Positions 10,777-18,223 of a DNA stretch of 21,087 nt are shown here, piece after piece. The first letter of the stretch is position 1; each line of letters begins with the position of its first letter. A program made the translations under genes and the position numbers. The stretch is from a virus. The notes under the pieces were generated by a model. It was not told the origin of the DNA, ran no database searches, and saw only the letters and a list, made by a program, of their open reading frames with translations. The DNA lies in IMG/VR virus record IMGVR_UViG_3300032285_003545, positions 1 to 21,087 of that record; one strand, 5' to 3'.

Positions 10777-12648
10777 TTAGAAAGTAACAACTTTTCCTTT
10801 AATATCTACATCCGGATATTTAACTTCAAAAATTGAAGGATCAAGAGATGGGTATATGACTCCATTTAAAGTTCCTGCGGATATATCATAAGCATACTTT
10901 GAATATCCATTTTCTTCCCCATACTTATTAACTATTTCAACTTTTCGTACTGTCTGAACTCCTGTAACTTTGTCTAAAATAGTGTATATATCTGATAGAA
11001 TAATTGGTTGATTTATTTGCCAATTATCTAGGTTAAAATGAGCTTGCAGTTGTTCAATACATCTAGCAATAACTTCTCTTCCTGCATAATTAGGTCGTAA
11101 TACTACTTCAAAATTAACTCCTATGTTGACTATAAATGCATCTCTCAATAGTATTGTATCTGTAAGCATTCTGTACTCTGAGAGATATGTTTTTAAATTT
11201 TGTTTTAGAATATCTGATGTGGTAGTTAGATTACCGTTACTATCCGTAGCTAAGATGTAAATTGTAGCACTATACGGATCTAAGACTCCTGGCTGGTTTA
11301 CAGTACTGTTTAATACTATGCTGTCTTTTAATATAGCAGCTTTTGCTATTTTGCCGAACTTAGAAGGCATATTATATACATGGGCAATGTAGTCCTGGGA
11401 AGTTACTGCGCGTAATTGTGTAGGATATTGCAGTAGAGTATTTAATTTGATCTCATCTAAAGTATCTCCATCACCGCCGCCTGATGCAGGAGATGGATTA
11501 TTTATTGATATTGAATTTAGAACAGCTGTTCCAAGATCCGTATTTGCTACTACTCCTTCAAAAAAATCAGCACTAAAATCTATAATATTTCCAATTGAAT
11601 TAGCAGCTACGTTAGCACTTGCTCCACCTCCTACCAAGTAAGTAAAGGTTAGGGTAGTGTTAGAGGGTGCAAGACCGTAGGTATATGTAGAGGTGAAGTT
11701 AGTTGGATCGTAGGCTGTGGTTAGTTTTGTTAACGAGTCCATGACTCCAATTGCTACTTTATTAGGATTCGGCAATACTGCTTCGTCAGCTACACTGTTA
11801 ATACCTGATCCGAATTCTATATCTACTACTCCTTCGGGCTTTACTCTTGATACAAATCGCCTAGAGACTTTCTTTACTTGTAAGAAGTAAGGTACCTGGT
11901 TAGAATCATTTTGGTAGTTCGGAGTAATACCTTCAAGATTAGCTACAGCTTCTAGTACTGTATCTTGAGCAAGGTATGGAACTTCATACCATTTATTTCC
12001 GTCTGAGTCTACTACGTCTAGTATCTGTATAATATTAGTGTCTAATATTGATACTTTTTTAAATTTCTCAGCTTGAGAAAAGTTAAAAGAAGTAGTTTTT
12101 ACTGTACCTGATAGAGCTTGTACTGATTTTTTCAATAAAAAGAAATCCGGTAGACCTCCTGTGGTAGAGTATACGCTAACCTCAGTTGGACTATAAGAAC
12201 TAGAGATAGCAAAATTAATTGGCTCTGGGACATAGAAGGCATTACTGTTTCCTGCCGATACTTGCATACCCTCGTGTATTATTAAAGCGTAACTATAGTC
12301 CGGTACGTAGTTACCATCACCATCCTGTATAGAGGGTATCAGTTGGTAGATGTCTAGTTCTACTGTTGCTGCTGAAGTTGCTTTAGGTCTATACCCTAAC
12401 ATATAAGCAAGAGCGTATAGGTTTGTAGTCTGCTTAGCATACTGTAGAAAAGTTTCTTGAATTTGGTTATCCAAGTAGAAAGATAGCACATCTCCTACAT
12501 AAGCCGCCATTTCTATAAACATAGTACCGGGAGAAGCTGATGTAAAGTCATTGTAGGACTGTGGAAAATACGCTTTTGCATACTCTATTAGAGATGCTTT
12601 TAAATCCGTATAGTCTTTGTTTATGTACTTAATATCAACGTTAGCCAT
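10777..12648 (-). CDS. gp6: Baseplate wedge protein, T4 gp6 / phage baseplate J-like
   Basis: 623 aa, close to the 660 aa of T4 gp6. The N-terminus (residues 1-90) is the typical helical wedge segment: DYTDLKASLIEYAKAYFP, then SPGTMFIEMAAYVGDVLSFYLD, then YALAYMLGYRPKATSAATVE. Residues 388-424 carry the Baseplate_J signature, a Gly-rich loop followed by a DTLDEIK-like acidic helix and RAVTSQDY. The family forms the wedge core together with gp25 and gp7 and triggers sheath contraction. Its start overlaps the end of the gp25 gene by 8 bases, the usual gp25-gp6 order. No truncation is visible. Confidence 0.93.
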   Translation of the reverse strand: MANVDIKYINKDYTDLKASLIEYAKAYFPQSYNDFTSASPGTMFIEMAAYVGDVLSFYLDNQIQETFLQYAKQTTNLYALAYMLGYRPKATSAATVELDIYQLIPSIQDGDGNYVPDYSYALIIHEGMQVSAGNSNAFYVPEPINFAISSSYSPTEVSVYSTTGGLPDFFLLKKSVQALSGTVKTTSFNFSQAEKFKKVSILDTNIIQILDVVDSDGNKWYEVPYLAQDTVLEAVANLEGITPNYQNDSNQVPYFLQVKKVSRRFVSRVKPEGVVDIEFGSGINSVADEAVLPNPNKVAIGVMDSLTKLTTAYDPTNFTSTYTYGLAPSNTTLTFTYLVGGGASANVAANSIGNIIDFSADFFEGVVANTDLGTAVLNSISINNPSPASGGGDGDTLDEIKLNTLLQYPTQLRAVTSQDYIAHVYNMPSKFGKIAKAAILKDSIVLNSTVNQPGVLDPYSATIYILATDSNGNLTTTSDILKQNLKTYLSEYRMLTDTILLRDAFIVNIGVNFEVVLRPNYAGREVIARCIEQLQAHFNLDNWQINQPIILSDIYTILDKVTGVQTVRKVEIVNKYGEENGYSKYAYDISAGTLNGVIYPSLDPSIFEVKYPDVDIKGKVVTF

Positions 12649-13054
12649 TTTCTAAATTTATAGTAATTTCGTCTTGCTGGTTTGTTGTAACTACTTTATA
12701 GGTGATTGATACTCTTACAATATTCTGATCCGGATATGGTTCGATTGAGGAGTCCAGTATTTGTATATTAGTGAAGTAGGATTCTATACCACCTATGATA
12801 AGATCTTTAAGGCCTTCCACGTAGTTAGTCGTCATTTGTTCAAACAACTTTTTTCTGAGACCTAGTCCAAAGGTGGGTTCGAATACACGTTCACCTGGGT
12901 TTGTTAACACATAGTTAATTAAGTTATAACGAGTTTGCTCTTGAGTCGTATACACAGTTCTAAATACAAAAGCTTGATTAAAAGGAATTGCTACTCCTAC
13001 TCCTGTACTAGCTTTTAAATCTATAGGGTTTATATTTCCGACTCTATATGCCAT
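12641..13054 (-). CDS. gp25: Baseplate wedge protein gp25-like (lysozyme-like fold family)
   Basis: 137 aa, the usual length for the gp25/GPW family. The family core is visible at residues 51-72: TNPGERVFEPTFGLGLRKKL, containing the conserved E-P-x-F-G-x-G-L-R. It is preceded by a helix that holds the conserved N-x-I-x-Y-x-L (NLINYVL) and followed by the beta-hairpin SITYKV. In contractile tails gp25 binds gp6 and the sheath, and starts sheath polymerisation. The fold resembles lysozyme but is not catalytic in T4. It starts 1 base after the stop of the 152-aa gene and overlaps gp6 by 8 bases. Confidence 0.95.
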   Translation of the reverse strand: MAYRVGNINPIDLKASTGVGVAIPFNQAFVFRTVYTTQEQTRYNLINYVLTNPGERVFEPTFGLGLRKKLFEQMTTNYVEGLKDLIIGGIESYFTNIQILDSSIEPYPDQNIVRVSITYKVVTTNQQDEITINLENG

Positions 13055-13055
13055 T

Positions 13056-13514
13056 TTACATATTCATTTTTTTCATTATTGCAGAGAAATCCGGTACTTC
13101 GTTAATTTCAACCATCTCTTCTTTTGAACTCTTATTTGCTGTCATAAGCATTTTATTTACCTGATAGGTTGGATCTTCAAGCTGTTCTTGAATTACAGGC
13201 TGTTCATAAGAAAATTGTTGTTCTGCAAAAGTAGGAGATGTAGCAGACATCATACTTCTAAAATCAGATGTATCACTTAATCCTAATTTTGATAACATTT
13301 CCATCCTCGTTTGTTCTAACATAGGATTTGACATCTTAGTAGCTGGTGCTTGTACTGTGGGTGTAGGTTGTGAAGTATAGGCTGGTCTTGCTTTTACTAT
13401 CTCCAAAAGGATAGGAACCATCTCTTCCTTTATGGCGGATTTTACTTCCTCCCTAATAACTTTCCTTAGACTCGCTAAAGCATTAGGTTTGTTTGAATTG
13501 GGCTTTTGGTTCAT
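13056..13514 (-). CDS. Small, largely disordered protein upstream of gp25
   Basis: 152 aa. Residues 11-44 form a charged amphipathic helix (LRKVIREEVKSAIKEEMVPI). Residues 45-110 are Pro/Thr/Gln/Ser-rich and probably disordered. The C-terminus is a short conserved-looking motif (PDFSAIMKKMNM) preceded by an acidic stretch. No catalytic or membrane signature is seen. Its position between the 748-aa hub-like protein and gp25 suggests an assembly factor, chaperone or small hub/wedge linker. The start codon lies immediately after the motif AATATTTATAAG, which leaves almost no leader. I do not recognise a family. Confidence 0.75.
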   Translation of the reverse strand: MNQKPNSNKPNALASLRKVIREEVKSAIKEEMVPILLEIVKARPAYTSQPTPTVQAPATKMSNPMLEQTRMEMLSKLGLSDTSDFRSMMSATSPTFAEQQFSYEQPVIQEQLEDPTYQVNKMLMTANKSSKEEMVEINEVPDFSAIMKKMNM

Positions 13515-13539: not shown

Positions 13540-15786
13540 TTATCCTCCTGCTAATTGAGCTCTTGCTTTATCATCTTCTTCTAGTTTCTTTTTAGCTTTT
13601 TCTGCTGCTACTCTTATAGCGGGATTAAAACTAAATTTAGCTGCTGTAATAGCTGCTTTTAAAACCTTCCTTTGCGAGCTGGTAAGTAAGTTCTTAGAAG
13701 GACTGGGTGCTTCATTTCCTAACTGCGGCAGTACGTTAGTGACTCCGCTTGTGGTTGCATTGACACCTTGGTCTTTTACGTCTTGTTTAAATTTCACTAC
13801 TCTGTCATCTACTTTCTGCTTAGCTTTTCTCTTTAGTTTAACTCCATTTTTTAAGCCTGAGATGAAGTCGTTTATCTCTGCTTGCACTTCTACCATATCA
13901 CTTGTCGTAGAAGTAGTTTCAATGGGTATTTCGTCTATACCGAGAATAGAAGAAGTACTGTCTAGTAAAGACTGTTCATCTAGAGTCAAGACATTATCGC
14001 TATTCTGCAGTACTCCTTGTTGCTGTAATCTTAGTTTAAGCTCTTGTATTAGAATAGCGTTGTTAGTAGCAAACGTCAAATCTCCTTCAGCAACTAGCAG
14101 TCCATTATCATTGTAAGCTACTGCTCTCCGTCTCTTAAACCTTCTTCCTTCGTCTACTAGCTCTTCCTCTATAACAGTAAAAGTGTATCCTGGAATCTTT
14201 AGAGAAGATTGCGAGTCCTGTACAGTCCTGGCGTAGTTATCTGTGAATTCTACTAACCTAATTTGTGAGCTTACAAGAGTGTTTATATTCGTATACACAT
14301 CTTGTAGAATAGGTAGATTTTTAATTTCAGCGCATGCTTCCATATTTACTACTAGTATCTGCAACTCTCGTGTGACTATCTGTACTTTTTCAAGAATAAA
14401 AGCAGCGAACTCATACACAAGTGCAAGAAGTCTACTAATTTGTTCTAAGAAATTTAAAGTTCGGTTATTACTAGCTTTTACGGTTTCTTTAGCTTCTTCT
14501 AGAGTAGCAGTAATTCCATGTACGGAAAACATATTAGGAAGCGGTAGAGTCTTAAATAACTGTACTATTATCTTAAACACTCTAATAAGTACTGTAAGTA
14601 TTTTAACAACAACTTTGGCAAAGGACAGTATTTTAAATATCTGCAAGACTGCTTGATTTATATTCCGGACTACTTGTAAGATCTTTTTAACAGCGGGCAG
14701 TAATCTTGCCGGGTCAATAATCTGCTGCAGTTTCCTAATTTGACTCTGTACTCCTAGTAAATTTACAATACTTTGTGCAGAATTTATAGATGCAATTGCT
14801 CCTAAGATAGCTTGTAAGTCATGTACCTTATTTACAATTTTCTGTACATCCGCGTTAGGGATATCGCTAACGCTTTTATACCCTGTAAAGATTGCAGTAA
14901 TATCTTCAACTGTAGATCTTGCTTTTCCTAATCCCGGTACTACTGATAGTAACTCTGTTGGTATCTCTGTGAATATTCCTAAACCTAACTCTCGTAGGTT
15001 ATCAAGAAGATTAACTAGTTTTTGTTTCTCTGCTTGCTGGTTGGTGTTAGATCCTGCTTGTACTGTTGTATTCTCCGTTCTAGGAGTGTTAGCAATTGTA
15101 GTAAAGGTTGTGTATTTACTAATTGCTTCGTTTAAATTGTAGGCCGAGCTTCTAACTTGATCTAATTTTTGCTTTATATCAGGATTTTTAATTAGATCTA
15201 CTTTCACTTGTGAAAGGTAATAGTTTATGATATTGCAAATATCAACTTCGTTTAAAGCTTTTAGTGGAGCTTCTACATACTTACTGAATATGTCATCTAT
15301 CCTGTTTTCTAAATCTCCTAACTTTTTAGCAGTCTTCAGTGTAAAATTTTCTAATCCAGCAGGAGAAGGAGCAGGTAGAGCTACCGGAGCATATGGACGG
15401 AAAGGAACTGTTGCTTTCTCAATTGGTGAGATAGAGATCGGTATGTTCTGCGGACTTTGTACTACGGAGGTTTTTATCGGAGCTTTTACTTTAGCTACTA
15501 CTGCTACTGTTTCTAGGGTACCGGTTGACTCTAAAACAAACTCTCCTAAATCGACCTGTGTGGTATTTGCCGGTATTTTTCGAATTTCGGGTTTATATCC
15601 TGTATAAGTAACTTGTACGTAATCAGCTGTATCCGTATTCGCTGTTACGGCATATTCTCCATTTGATTGAACTGTCGTACCGGTCTTTAGAGCTACTTGA
15701 TTCTTGTCTAAAAGAACGACACTCGCTCCTTGCAGGTACTGATTATCTTTTCCTTTAACCTTACCTTTTATTTGTACTTGTGCCAT
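13540..15786 (-). CDS. Hub or tape-measure-like protein with N-terminal SusC-type carboxypeptidase-regulatory-like domain
   Basis: 748 aa. Residues 3-87 match the CarboxypepD_reg-like pattern common at the N-terminus of SusC/TonB-dependent proteins of Bacteroidota: a VKGKDNQYLQGASVVLLDKN opening, then SNGEYAVTA and VQVTYTGYKPE. A Pro-rich linker (100-145) follows, then long helices (150-530). Within these, residues 360-420 are hydrophobic and cationic (LQIFKILSFAKVVVKILTVL...), unlike a soluble coiled coil and similar to the membrane-interacting stretch of tape-measure proteins. Residues 530-590 look like a small beta insert. The C-terminus (640-748) is very Lys/Ala-rich and helical. It follows the hub and spike genes and precedes gp25, so it may be a central hub or tape-measure protein; neither is proven. 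The host-like domain suggests acquisition from a Bacteroidota source. Confidence 0.75.
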   Translation of the reverse strand: MAQVQIKGKVKGKDNQYLQGASVVLLDKNQVALKTGTTVQSNGEYAVTANTDTADYVQVTYTGYKPEIRKIPANTTQVDLGEFVLESTGTLETVAVVAKVKAPIKTSVVQSPQNIPISISPIEKATVPFRPYAPVALPAPSPAGLENFTLKTAKKLGDLENRIDDIFSKYVEAPLKALNEVDICNIINYYLSQVKVDLIKNPDIKQKLDQVRSSAYNLNEAISKYTTFTTIANTPRTENTTVQAGSNTNQQAEKQKLVNLLDNLRELGLGIFTEIPTELLSVVPGLGKARSTVEDITAIFTGYKSVSDIPNADVQKIVNKVHDLQAILGAIASINSAQSIVNLLGVQSQIRKLQQIIDPARLLPAVKKILQVVRNINQAVLQIFKILSFAKVVVKILTVLIRVFKIIVQLFKTLPLPNMFSVHGITATLEEAKETVKASNNRTLNFLEQISRLLALVYEFAAFILEKVQIVTRELQILVVNMEACAEIKNLPILQDVYTNINTLVSSQIRLVEFTDNYARTVQDSQSSLKIPGYTFTVIEEELVDEGRRFKRRRAVAYNDNGLLVAEGDLTFATNNAILIQELKLRLQQQGVLQNSDNVLTLDEQSLLDSTSSILGIDEIPIETTSTTSDMVEVQAEINDFISGLKNGVKLKRKAKQKVDDRVVKFKQDVKDQGVNATTSGVTNVLPQLGNEAPSPSKNLLTSSQRKVLKAAITAAKFSFNPAIRVAAEKAKKKLEEDDKARAQLAGG

Positions 15787-15787
15787 A

Positions 15788-16231
15788 CTACAGTGTATAA
15801 GTTGTTTTGGACTTCACATTAACCAGCTTATTACGGACCCTGGTACAGGTCCCTTGTAGTTTACTAGACGTTTTTACGAGATCTACTATACTCTGCTGTA
15901 GGTTAGTCTGTGATAAATTACTTAAAGCAATTGCTGTAGCTTCTAACTCTTTTAATACTGTGTCTAGTAGTTCAACTAAGGTATCAGCTTTTGTTACAGG
16001 CTGTCCTACTTGCTTTGCTCTAAGTCCTAATTCAATTTCCGGAGCATTAATAGTAGTACCTGTTTGCGTGTCAATATTCACTCTACCAGGGCTTGAAAGT
16101 CCGATTGCATTTTTTCCAAAAAGAAAGATACTGTCTCCTTTACTGTGTACAACTACTCTATCCGAGGATATGATCACTTGCGGACCTGTATATGGAAATT
16201 GCGGTAAGTACGGAGCTTTCTGAGTGGACAT
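15788..16231 (-). CDS. Baseplate spike/needle protein (gp5 C-terminal beta-helix-like)
   Basis: 147 aa. Residues 15-70 form a succession of short beta strands (GPQVIISSDRVVVHSKGD, then SIFLFGKNAIGLSSPGRVNI, then TTINAPEIELG). They resemble the triple-stranded beta-helix spike part of T4 gp5 and the spike family of environmental T4-type phages. Residues 75-147 are helical, including a TLVELLDTVLKELEATAIAL segment probably used for trimerisation. It is separated by 3 bases from the OB-fold hub gene, so the hub and needle functions that are fused in T4 gp5 are here two genes. Likely role: the membrane-piercing tip. No metal-binding PAAR motif is seen. Confidence 0.75.
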   Translation of the reverse strand: MSTQKAPYLPQFPYTGPQVIISSDRVVVHSKGDSIFLFGKNAIGLSSPGRVNIDTQTGTTINAPEIELGLRAKQVGQPVTKADTLVELLDTVLKELEATAIALSNLSQTNLQQSIVDLVKTSSKLQGTCTRVRNKLVNVKSKTTYTL

Positions 16232-16234
16232 ATT

Positions 16235-17104
16235 TTATTTTTTCTGATTTCTCCTATCTTGTTCTGCAGCAGATATCTTAGCGTAACTTGTAGGTAGAGT
16301 AGGAATGCTCAAGAGAGTGCTTTTGCTCAAACCTCCTTGTGCAGTAAAAGACTCTAAGCTAAAATTCTCTATAATGTCTTTAACATATACTTCCTGTGAG
16401 GTTGTCATCCATATACTACTTGCATCATTGTTTATATTCTCTTCTAGCAAATCCCAATTGTCACCTTGCTTTTCTCCGAATCCATTTGTTATAATAGTTA
16501 TAGGATCTCCTTCCCCTTCTACTCCACTCCACCTATTGGTACCGTTCTTACCGGTGCTACCGAATCGTATAGTATTACCCCACCTTCCTTCAATTGTTAT
16601 ATCTCCTAAAAATGGTTTTAGGGTTGTTATGTTTTCTTTCTCTACAATATCTGAACTTACTTCCTGATTAGTATCATATGCTGATATTCCTTCTGTTATC
16701 TGATCTAGAGAAGGTTGTTGGTTTTCAATAGTTGCTTGCAGTTCTGCTTTATTTGGATGCTTGTTATGGTGGGAGTTTAACCAGAGAGAATATGGTAGAA
16801 AATAAAATTTATCTTGTGCTGTAGGACTATCATTCAATCTATAACTCGGTCCTGTAATGATACAGACTATTTCGTCCTTTAAAGGATAATGTTTATGGTT
16901 GTTTGAAATAGGTAATGCAGTTCCGGCTGTTGCTGTTGCTCCGTAAAGAGGTTCGTATGTAATCTGTCCTAACTTTGCAGGGTCTGATAACTCTATCGAG
17001 ATAACCCGTCCTACCATTACACTGTTAATAGACGGTCCGGGAGTTTTACGTCCGGGAGTTTGAAACCCGGCACGCATCACATTATCTATAATATTAGAGG
17101 ACAT
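16235..17104 (-). CDS. Baseplate hub protein, gp5-like OB-fold, without lysozyme domain
   Basis: 289 aa. Residues 25-110 give an OB-like pattern (INSVMVGRVISIELSD, then HYPLKDEIVCIITGPS and KFYFLPYSLW). Residues 165-210 contain the segment GDITIEGRWGNTIRFGSTGK followed by GDPITIITNG, which I recall as highly conserved in hub proteins of marine and freshwater T4-type phages. T4 gp5 is 575 aa with a lysozyme domain between the OB fold and the beta-helix; here no lysozyme motif is present, and the spike is the next gene. The C-terminus is helical and Lys-rich. Its start overlaps the stop of the 110-aa gene (TAATG). It probably caps the tail tube and carries the needle. Confidence 0.8.
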   Translation of the reverse strand: MSSNIIDNVMRAGFQTPGRKTPGPSINSVMVGRVISIELSDPAKLGQITYEPLYGATATAGTALPISNNHKHYPLKDEIVCIITGPSYRLNDSPTAQDKFYFLPYSLWLNSHHNKHPNKAELQATIENQQPSLDQITEGISAYDTNQEVSSDIVEKENITTLKPFLGDITIEGRWGNTIRFGSTGKNGTNRWSGVEGEGDPITIITNGFGEKQGDNWDLLEENINNDASSIWMTTSQEVYVKDIIENFSLESFTAQGGLSKSTLLSIPTLPTSYAKISAAEQDRRNQKK

Positions 17105-17461: not shown

Positions 17462-18223
17462 TTAAAAAATACCGGAAGAGTAACCTTGTTCTAAATACCT
17501 GTTGTGTATTAATTTGTAGACTTTCTTTAACTTCTTTATTATAACAGTTATGGCAGGTGTGGATGCATCTGTAATTTCCCTAATGTAAATGTAGAGAGCT
17601 TTTTTGGATAGTATATCTAAATTTTCTCTCTTTCTAAAGATCTCTAAGATAGCATCAGCAATCCTAGCATCTTTTTCTTTAGGAAAGAGATCTTCTAAGT
17701 TACTCTCTACGTAAGCTATGAAAAGATCAACCGGATTGCTTCTTTCTAGGTTTAGATCTACATCAGTTTTATTACTAATGTCTGCTAGAATAGTTTTATC
17801 ATTATCAATATCTTGTAATGGAGCTTTTTCTTTTTTCCTCTTGTAGTTCTTCTTGTTAAGGTTTATAAGATATCTCTTAGTGATTGTTCCGAAATAAGAA
17901 TAGGCTTTACCTTTTTCTTTTTTGTAAAGCCTTAATTTTTCAAGAAGTACTGCTACTACTTCGTGCTTCAAATCCATTACTGTATTTCCATCCGTATAAG
18001 GAAACTTAAACGTATTAATAATATTTTCTGCAAGTTTATGAAAAGCGTAGTTAATCTTCTCGTTAAAGAGCCTATTCTTAAAGACAGCATCTTCGGATGC
18101 TACGTACTCTAAAATAGCGTCTTCTGTTTCCTGCGTAAAATATAAATTAGACGTTTTAGGTTTCCTTTTTCTTATTCTACCTTTCTTGGTTAGCTCAACC
18201 GGTACTTCTTCTATATGAATCAT
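17462..18223 (-). CDS. gp55: Late sigma factor, T4 gp55-like
   Basis: 253 aa. Residues 56-133 match a sigma region 2-like helical core: FHKLAENIINTFKFPYTDGN, then MDLKHEVVAVLLEKLRLYKK, then KGKAYSYFGTITKRYLINLN and a Lys/Arg-rich patch. The order and spacing are those of T4 gp55 (LAEGL...FNFSGYTQ...DGIEASIKGL...AYITQACFNAFV). T4 gp55 is about 185 aa. This protein is longer, and residues 203-243 (ILSKKALYIYIREITDASTP, then AITVIIKKLKKVY) look like a helix-turn-helix. The T4 clamp-binding C-terminus (SLDFLYE) is absent; the tail here ends YSSGIF. It likely directs host RNA polymerase to late promoters of the structural block. The start overlaps the upstream gene through TAATG. Confidence 0.82.
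   Translation of the reverse strand: MIHIEEVPVELTKKGRIRKRKPKTSNLYFTQETEDAILEYVASEDAVFKNRLFNEKINYAFHKLAENIINTFKFPYTDGNTVMDLKHEVVAVLLEKLRLYKKEKGKAYSYFGTITKRYLINLNKKNYKRKKEKAPLQDIDNDKTILADISNKTDVDLNLERSNPVDLFIAYVESNLEDLFPKEKDARIADAILEIFRKRENLDILSKKALYIYIREITDASTPAITVIIKKLKKVYKLIHNRYLEQGYSSGIF

Follow-up and report, generated by a model that had tools for sequence, protein, structure and literature searches.

The window analysed here is the whole stretch of 21,087 nucleotides that makes up IMG/VR virus record IMGVR_UViG_3300032285_003545, a 21-kb viral sequence that is probably a fragment. Genes in the window follow the order p97, p253, p110, probable spike body, probable spike tip, SLOT, p152, gp25, gp6, p420 and p112, where SLOT denotes the gene under study and its product is referred to below as the slot protein. 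The central part of this operon comprises the following genes:

16235..17104, minus strand: probable gp5-like spike body, 289 aa (sequence pattern and gene order)
15788..16231, minus strand: probable spike tip, 147 aa (sequence pattern; many relatives have it fused to the following gene)
13540..15786, minus strand: slot protein, 748 aa, a putative spike-associated helical adaptor (open reading frame, synteny and AlphaFold model)
13056..13514, minus strand: small conserved partner p152, 152 aa, with an N-terminal coiled helix (synteny)
12641..13054, minus strand: gp25 baseplate wedge (PF04965, E 6e-7; phrog_261, E 2e-18)
10777..12648, minus strand: gp6 baseplate wedge (phrog_219, E 4e-21)

Neither cultured phages nor viral contigs yielded a match when searched directly with the whole slot protein. 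Relatives were therefore reached through gp6, whose identity is 45% with its counterpart in Flavobacterium phage immuto and 44% with that in Microcystis phage Mel-JY01. The gene order described above is common to the 80 IMG/VR contigs found in this way, as far as each contig reaches. Together with the Pfam and PHROGs matches of the neighbouring gp25 and gp6, this conserved position bears out the T4-like baseplate context proposed in an initial, sequence-only reading of the locus. The two genes upstream of the slot (289 and 147 aa) gave no profile match, including to solved spikes, and their sequence pattern and order point to a probable spike identity. A spike-tip profile compared with the PDB retrieved mostly coiled coils, with no phage spike among them, and was set aside. 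Here and in near relatives, spike body and tip are encoded separately (15788-17104), but the distant group has a single fused gene of about 410-430 aa (425 aa, for instance, in contig L036).

The ATG of the slot reading frame lies one base past the stop codon of the preceding gene (TAG-T-ATG), a spacing that makes the domain-bearing start plausible. Alignments, profile searches and an AlphaFold model of moderate confidence (pTM 0.42) outline the following layout for the protein:

15526..15780, minus strand: CarboxypepD_reg / SusC-NTE-like beta-sandwich, residues 3-87 (Pfam, TBDT profile, model and 9hfj match)
15490..15516, minus strand: LETVAVVAK, residues 91-99, a weak TonB-box-like segment after the domain (TBDT profile and shuffles)
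15358..15516, minus strand: disordered linker, residues 91-143 (AlphaFold pLDDT 28-35)
14206..15354, minus strand: helical core, residues 145-527, with long helices at 359-413, 423-483 and 492-527 (alignment and model)
14548..14712, minus strand: amphipathic helix 359-413, hydrophobic and Lys/Arg-dotted (model, hydropathy and shuffles)
14014..14205, minus strand: C-terminal alpha/beta subdomain, residues 528-591, the most conserved part (alignment and model)

An LPxP turn, common in the slot-protein family, directly follows helix 359-413, and the arginine pair RR 552-553 is invariant in alignment A1. After residue 591 the model shows a loosely helical tail.

The N-terminal region of the slot protein matched PF13620 over residues 5-75 (E 2.1e-7, 31.6 bits against a curated cut-off of 32.3) and PF13715 over residues 6-95 (E 8e-5, 23.0 bits against 32.2), and these matches are significant though just under both curated cut-offs. 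AlphaFold, with no homologue covering the region, modelled a seven-stranded domain at residues 3-85 (pLDDT 77-89), and re-alignment with VIA returned the SusC NTE 9hfj as its top PDB match (Z 11.5, rmsd 2.0, 79 of 80 residues), tied with the transthyretin-like domains of carboxypeptidase D/N. The CarboxypepD_reg-like domain that had been read from the sequence at residues 3-87 is hence confirmed, the predicted fold agreeing with the sub-threshold profile matches. As for its further designation as SusC-type, 9hfj ranks at the top, and a profile built from the N-termini of 58 Bacteroidota TonB-dependent receptors matches residues 3-100 with 36.4 bits, but SusC is not singled out, and the generic PF13620 outscores PF13715. 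For the domain of a distant relative, a PDB profile search likewise returned SusC homologues first (9hfj, E 1e-4), and fold comparison again identified 9hfj (Z 11.9).

The seven-stranded beta-sandwich is common to the slot-protein domain, the SusC/RagA NTE (PF13715; 6YTC, 9HFJ) and other CarboxypepD_reg domains (PF13620). Unlike SusC/RagA, the slot protein has no plug, barrel or signal peptide, and the domain is joined to a phage helical core; past the TonB-box position the plug and beta-barrel are absent, with the helical core in their place and no TBDT profile match. When bacterial genomes and viral contigs were searched by pattern, no sequence similar to residues 1-120 or 1-175 emerged, so that no donor gene could be identified. 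An alignment placing TBDT fragments on the slot-protein N-terminus was discarded, as the fragments were misaligned.

The whole slot protein had no useful match in NCBIfam, PHROGs or PDB sequences, and its core showed no detectable similarity to known hub proteins in Pfam, PHROGs or the PDB. Structural searches of the helical core with Foldseek and VIA gave no convincing match and only generic bundles, an absence that is uninformative in this setting. Among the contigs reached through gp6, 23 near relatives show about 19-30% identity to the core (about residues 175-591), and profile-profile comparison links near and distant relatives over the helix and the C-terminal subdomain (98.9% probability, E 3e-17). 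Slot proteins span about 285 to 1052 aa, and distant-type relatives are encoded on at least 399 viral-contig stretches. These comparisons indicate that the core, about 175-591, defines an undescribed family occupying one conserved operon slot. Alignment A1 was also tried as a search query and dropped, being too diverged.

In cultured phages, tblastn matches to the slot family were restricted to immuto phages. In Flavobacterium phage vB_FspM_immuto, immuto_155 has the same operon slot as the analysed phage and a recognisable core (E 1e-4 by phmmer against the retrieved relatives; 27.8% identity to a distant slot member), but it measures 371 aa and lacks the CarboxypepD_reg domain. This homologue of the putative hub adaptor (L002:13024-14139) is annotated as 'DNA repair ATPase, RecN', a label that is probably a coiled-coil misannotation. 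The same phage encodes immuto_237 (L087:9611-12427), a 938-aa protein with a VanY D-Ala-D-Ala carboxypeptidase domain at its end, near the tape measure gene, and a possible tail cell-wall enzyme; the 'carboxypeptidase' beside the immuto tape measure was accordingly rejected as an instance of CarboxypepD_reg. In Microcystis phage Mel-JY01 the protein occupying the slot ('putative chitinase', with an endolysin profile) sits likewise between spike and gp25, but its similarity is to endolysins and no similarity to the core was detected. No relatives with a solved structure or virion proteomics were found, nor did the open literature searched contain a report of the combined domain and helical-core architecture.

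A census of 102 complete, distinct relatives, not counting the analysed phage, revealed a mosaic N-terminus. The CarboxypepD_reg domain is absent from all of the near complete relatives (19/19). The 83 distant relatives comprise 39 with the domain at the N-terminus, 6 with the domain behind a further module, 24 with its second half only and 14 without it. The intact domain is thus found in 45 of the 83 distant relatives (45/102 overall), and the architecture, for which the sequence-only reading knew of no counterpart among T4-type hub proteins, recurs and is not unique. In a tree of the core, the analysed phage falls in a fully supported clade of 20 members and is the sole domain carrier there. 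Furthermore, the receptor profile gives its domain 38.9 bits, and the profile of the distant phages' domain gives it 10.6. Two separate acquisitions of the domain are thus the simpler reading, a provisional one in view of the narrow phage profile and the uncertain root of the tree.

The half-domain relatives show that the domain can be divided between adjacent genes. At these loci, counted after removal of a duplicate contig and of L047, the gene directly upstream ends in the missing first strands (A-B) in 22 of 23 cases (this count includes 2 degenerate ones, and a few of the contigs nearly duplicate one another); one such gene end reads GTVINSETNQPIEGVQV. Slot genes with an intact domain abut the spike gene (37/37), as do those with an extra N-terminal module (6/6); at half-domain loci an extra gene of 449-1294 nt lies between spike and slot in 21 of 22 loci. 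The upstream genes in split pairs are of GH19 or DUF5675 type, or unknown. In particular, GH19 hydrolases intervene at L215, L244 and L241, and also, together with LysM, at L210, whose gene is the one of these without the half domain, and DUF5675 proteins at L226, L236, L237, L240 and L227. A fused protein combining DUF5675, domain and core is encoded at L222, with two weak domain matches. In the first-half segment, synonymous sites differ by 0.49 and non-synonymous sites by 0.41 (0.36 in the centre), a divergence indicating that the split pieces are old and that constraint is mild. In the core tree, well-supported branches carry at least 6 changes of the half state. A single programmed frameshift was considered as the cause of the split and appears unlikely, with gaps ranging from -44 to +38 nt and separate start codons.

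Split pairs are located, among others, at L240:1624-3626, L230:4238-6011, L041:1-1593, L236:1404-3346 and L215:4107-6002. At L047:7465-9228, a single reading frame contains both domain pieces around a second copy of an N-terminal beta module, as if tandem genes had recombined. At three further loci (L040:5781-7292, L076:5866-7419 and L079:1899-4992), the genes intervening between spike and slot start with a CarboxypepD_reg-like domain, followed by a part that by eye resembles an OmpA-like domain; the slot proteins of L040, L076 and L079 lack the CarboxypepD_reg domain.

Within the core, the hydrophobic but Lys/Arg-dotted helix first noticed at residues 360-420 corresponds to a single helix of the model at 359-413, with a Kyte-Doolittle maximum of 1.94 over 21 residues and a net charge of +10. 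It is amphipathic beyond chance (36 of 10000 shuffles), and its approximate insertion energy, a rough estimate, is about +0.4 kcal/mol, so that a transmembrane role is not predicted. The helix is hence predicted to be of an amphipathic, surface-seeking kind, and it gives no clear transmembrane signal.

The account that we favour, and hold to be somewhat more likely than not, is that the slot protein serves a contractile tail of T4-like type as a structural adaptor at its central spike/hub, with its N-terminus as a swappable attachment position and the domain as a protein-protein joint. Because the gene keeps strictly to its place in the operon, next to the spike pair and gp25/gp6, we infer that the baseplate is the docking site of the helical core and the C-terminal alpha/beta subdomain (about 175-591). 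The same position suggests that the protein may belong to the hub, and it would then be present in virions. The swappable N-terminus would here consist of one beta-sandwich tethered by some 50 residues of flexible linker, and in relatives of the domain alone, with an extra N-terminal module, or divided with the upstream gene, which often encodes a cell-wall hydrolase. The occurrence of these three forms makes a protein-protein joint the most likely function for the domain, and such a joint at the tail tip may hold or position the spike or cell-wall-penetrating parts. In favour of this account are the constant gene order, the extra genes at half-domain loci that supply the missing strands, the GH19 and DUF5675 types among them, the L222 fusion, the endolysin-like slot protein of Mel-JY01, the separate tape measure and the fold of the domain. 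The moderate confidence of the model and the failure of profile searches to match the two probable spike genes count against it.

In T4, gp5, gp27 and gp29 form the hub, and gp5 carries the tail lysozyme. The slot gene resembles this system in having a probable spike and gp25/gp6 as its neighbours, and in the link of a hydrolase to the hub region in relatives, but in these relatives the enzyme is joined via a beta-sandwich and not inside gp5. The analysed stretch has no hydrolase fused to or inserted beside the domain, and the nearest relatives (19/19) lack the domain, so that its role in the analysed phage, and the part that it might hold there, may differ. A broader reading, which we regard as tentative and short of even chances, is that the NTE-like domain is a general tail-tip joint, often naturally split, with strands A-B on a tail hydrolase and the rest on the adaptor, and clipped together by strand complementation. 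The analysed phage would then present the intact form, probably through a separate gain from a TonB-receptor-type gene.

Other roles were weighed against an adaptor. The hydrophobic, cationic helices might instead exit the tail as part of a membrane-active pilot protein, insert in the host membrane and aid DNA entry. Kyte-Doolittle maxima of mostly about 1.5-2.4 across the slot family, a predicted helical hairpin and a weak resemblance to the helices of alpha-pore-forming toxins agree with this, but the helix is amphipathic rather than apolar, with an insertion energy estimated at about +0.4 kcal/mol, and the pore-toxin matches lie within the range expected of any helical bundle, making such a role unlikely. 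That the slot protein is itself a tape measure, or tape-measure-like as had been suggested from the sequence, is very improbable. The long helices and the family sizes of 285-1052 aa are in line with the suggestion, and a few slot proteins weakly match a tape-measure profile (phrog_167, E 0.003). The analysed record, probably a fragment, lacks the tape-measure region, and the gene was checked in relatives. In immuto it is immuto_233, which encodes 1006 aa and neighbours the sheath gene, and three long contigs of the slot-protein family likewise have it apart from the slot gene. On a 166-kb contig, the tape measure lies at 150 kb and the domain-bearing slot gene at 54 kb, about 95 kb apart.

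For the domain itself, a host-directed function can be envisaged, the sequence-only reading having proposed that it could act in docking to or crossing the Bacteroidota envelope. In the form considered here, a captured N-terminus of a TonB-dependent receptor, with its TonB-box-like tail, would engage a periplasmic partner such as TonB after outer-membrane crossing. The TonB box of B. theta (81-VDEVVV-86; DEVVVTG in Bt1763) comes after the NTE (PMC7782687), which in SusC places the homologous module on the periplasmic side; the original description of the domain as a host surface module is therefore corrected, and the order of NTE and TonB box suits a periplasmic partner. The contrast between 38.9 bits for receptor N-termini and 10.6 for the distant phage domain also suggests a separate acquisition, and the receptor-profile alignment continues into LETVAVVAK, which aligns with the TonB box. 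However, extension past residue 86 adds 4.4 bits, a gain reached by 78 of 2000 shuffles (p about 0.04), so that the TonB-box-like segment is weakly supported. The low score against the distant phage profile is partly expected from its narrowness, and no TonB-box-like segment is seen by eye in distant domain-bearing relatives. We consequently view host engagement as improbable. Similarly doubtful is that the domain is a decoration gained without functional effect, like the Ig-like ornaments often seen on structural proteins of phages. That just one of the 20 nearest complete members has it, tethered by a disordered linker, fits a passenger of this sort, but the domain recurs at the same N-terminal position in the distant clade, and both halves are retained where it is split.

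These results provide annotation and a parts list for a tail-protein family, large and without a name, from uncultured T4-like phages, in which a Bacteroidota-type periplasmic domain is used repeatedly at one spot of the phage tail. The possible natural split-domain clip attaching cell-wall enzymes might in turn serve as a protein-joining tool.

Elsewhere in the operon, a 253-aa protein (17462-18223) is strongly conserved across the family and shows a weak match to sigma-70 region 2 (E 0.02); it might be a late sigma factor. At one end of the window, the proteins encoded at 2-529 and 558-2111 contain long Thr-Pro-rich repeats and are probably tail fibre or appendage linkers.
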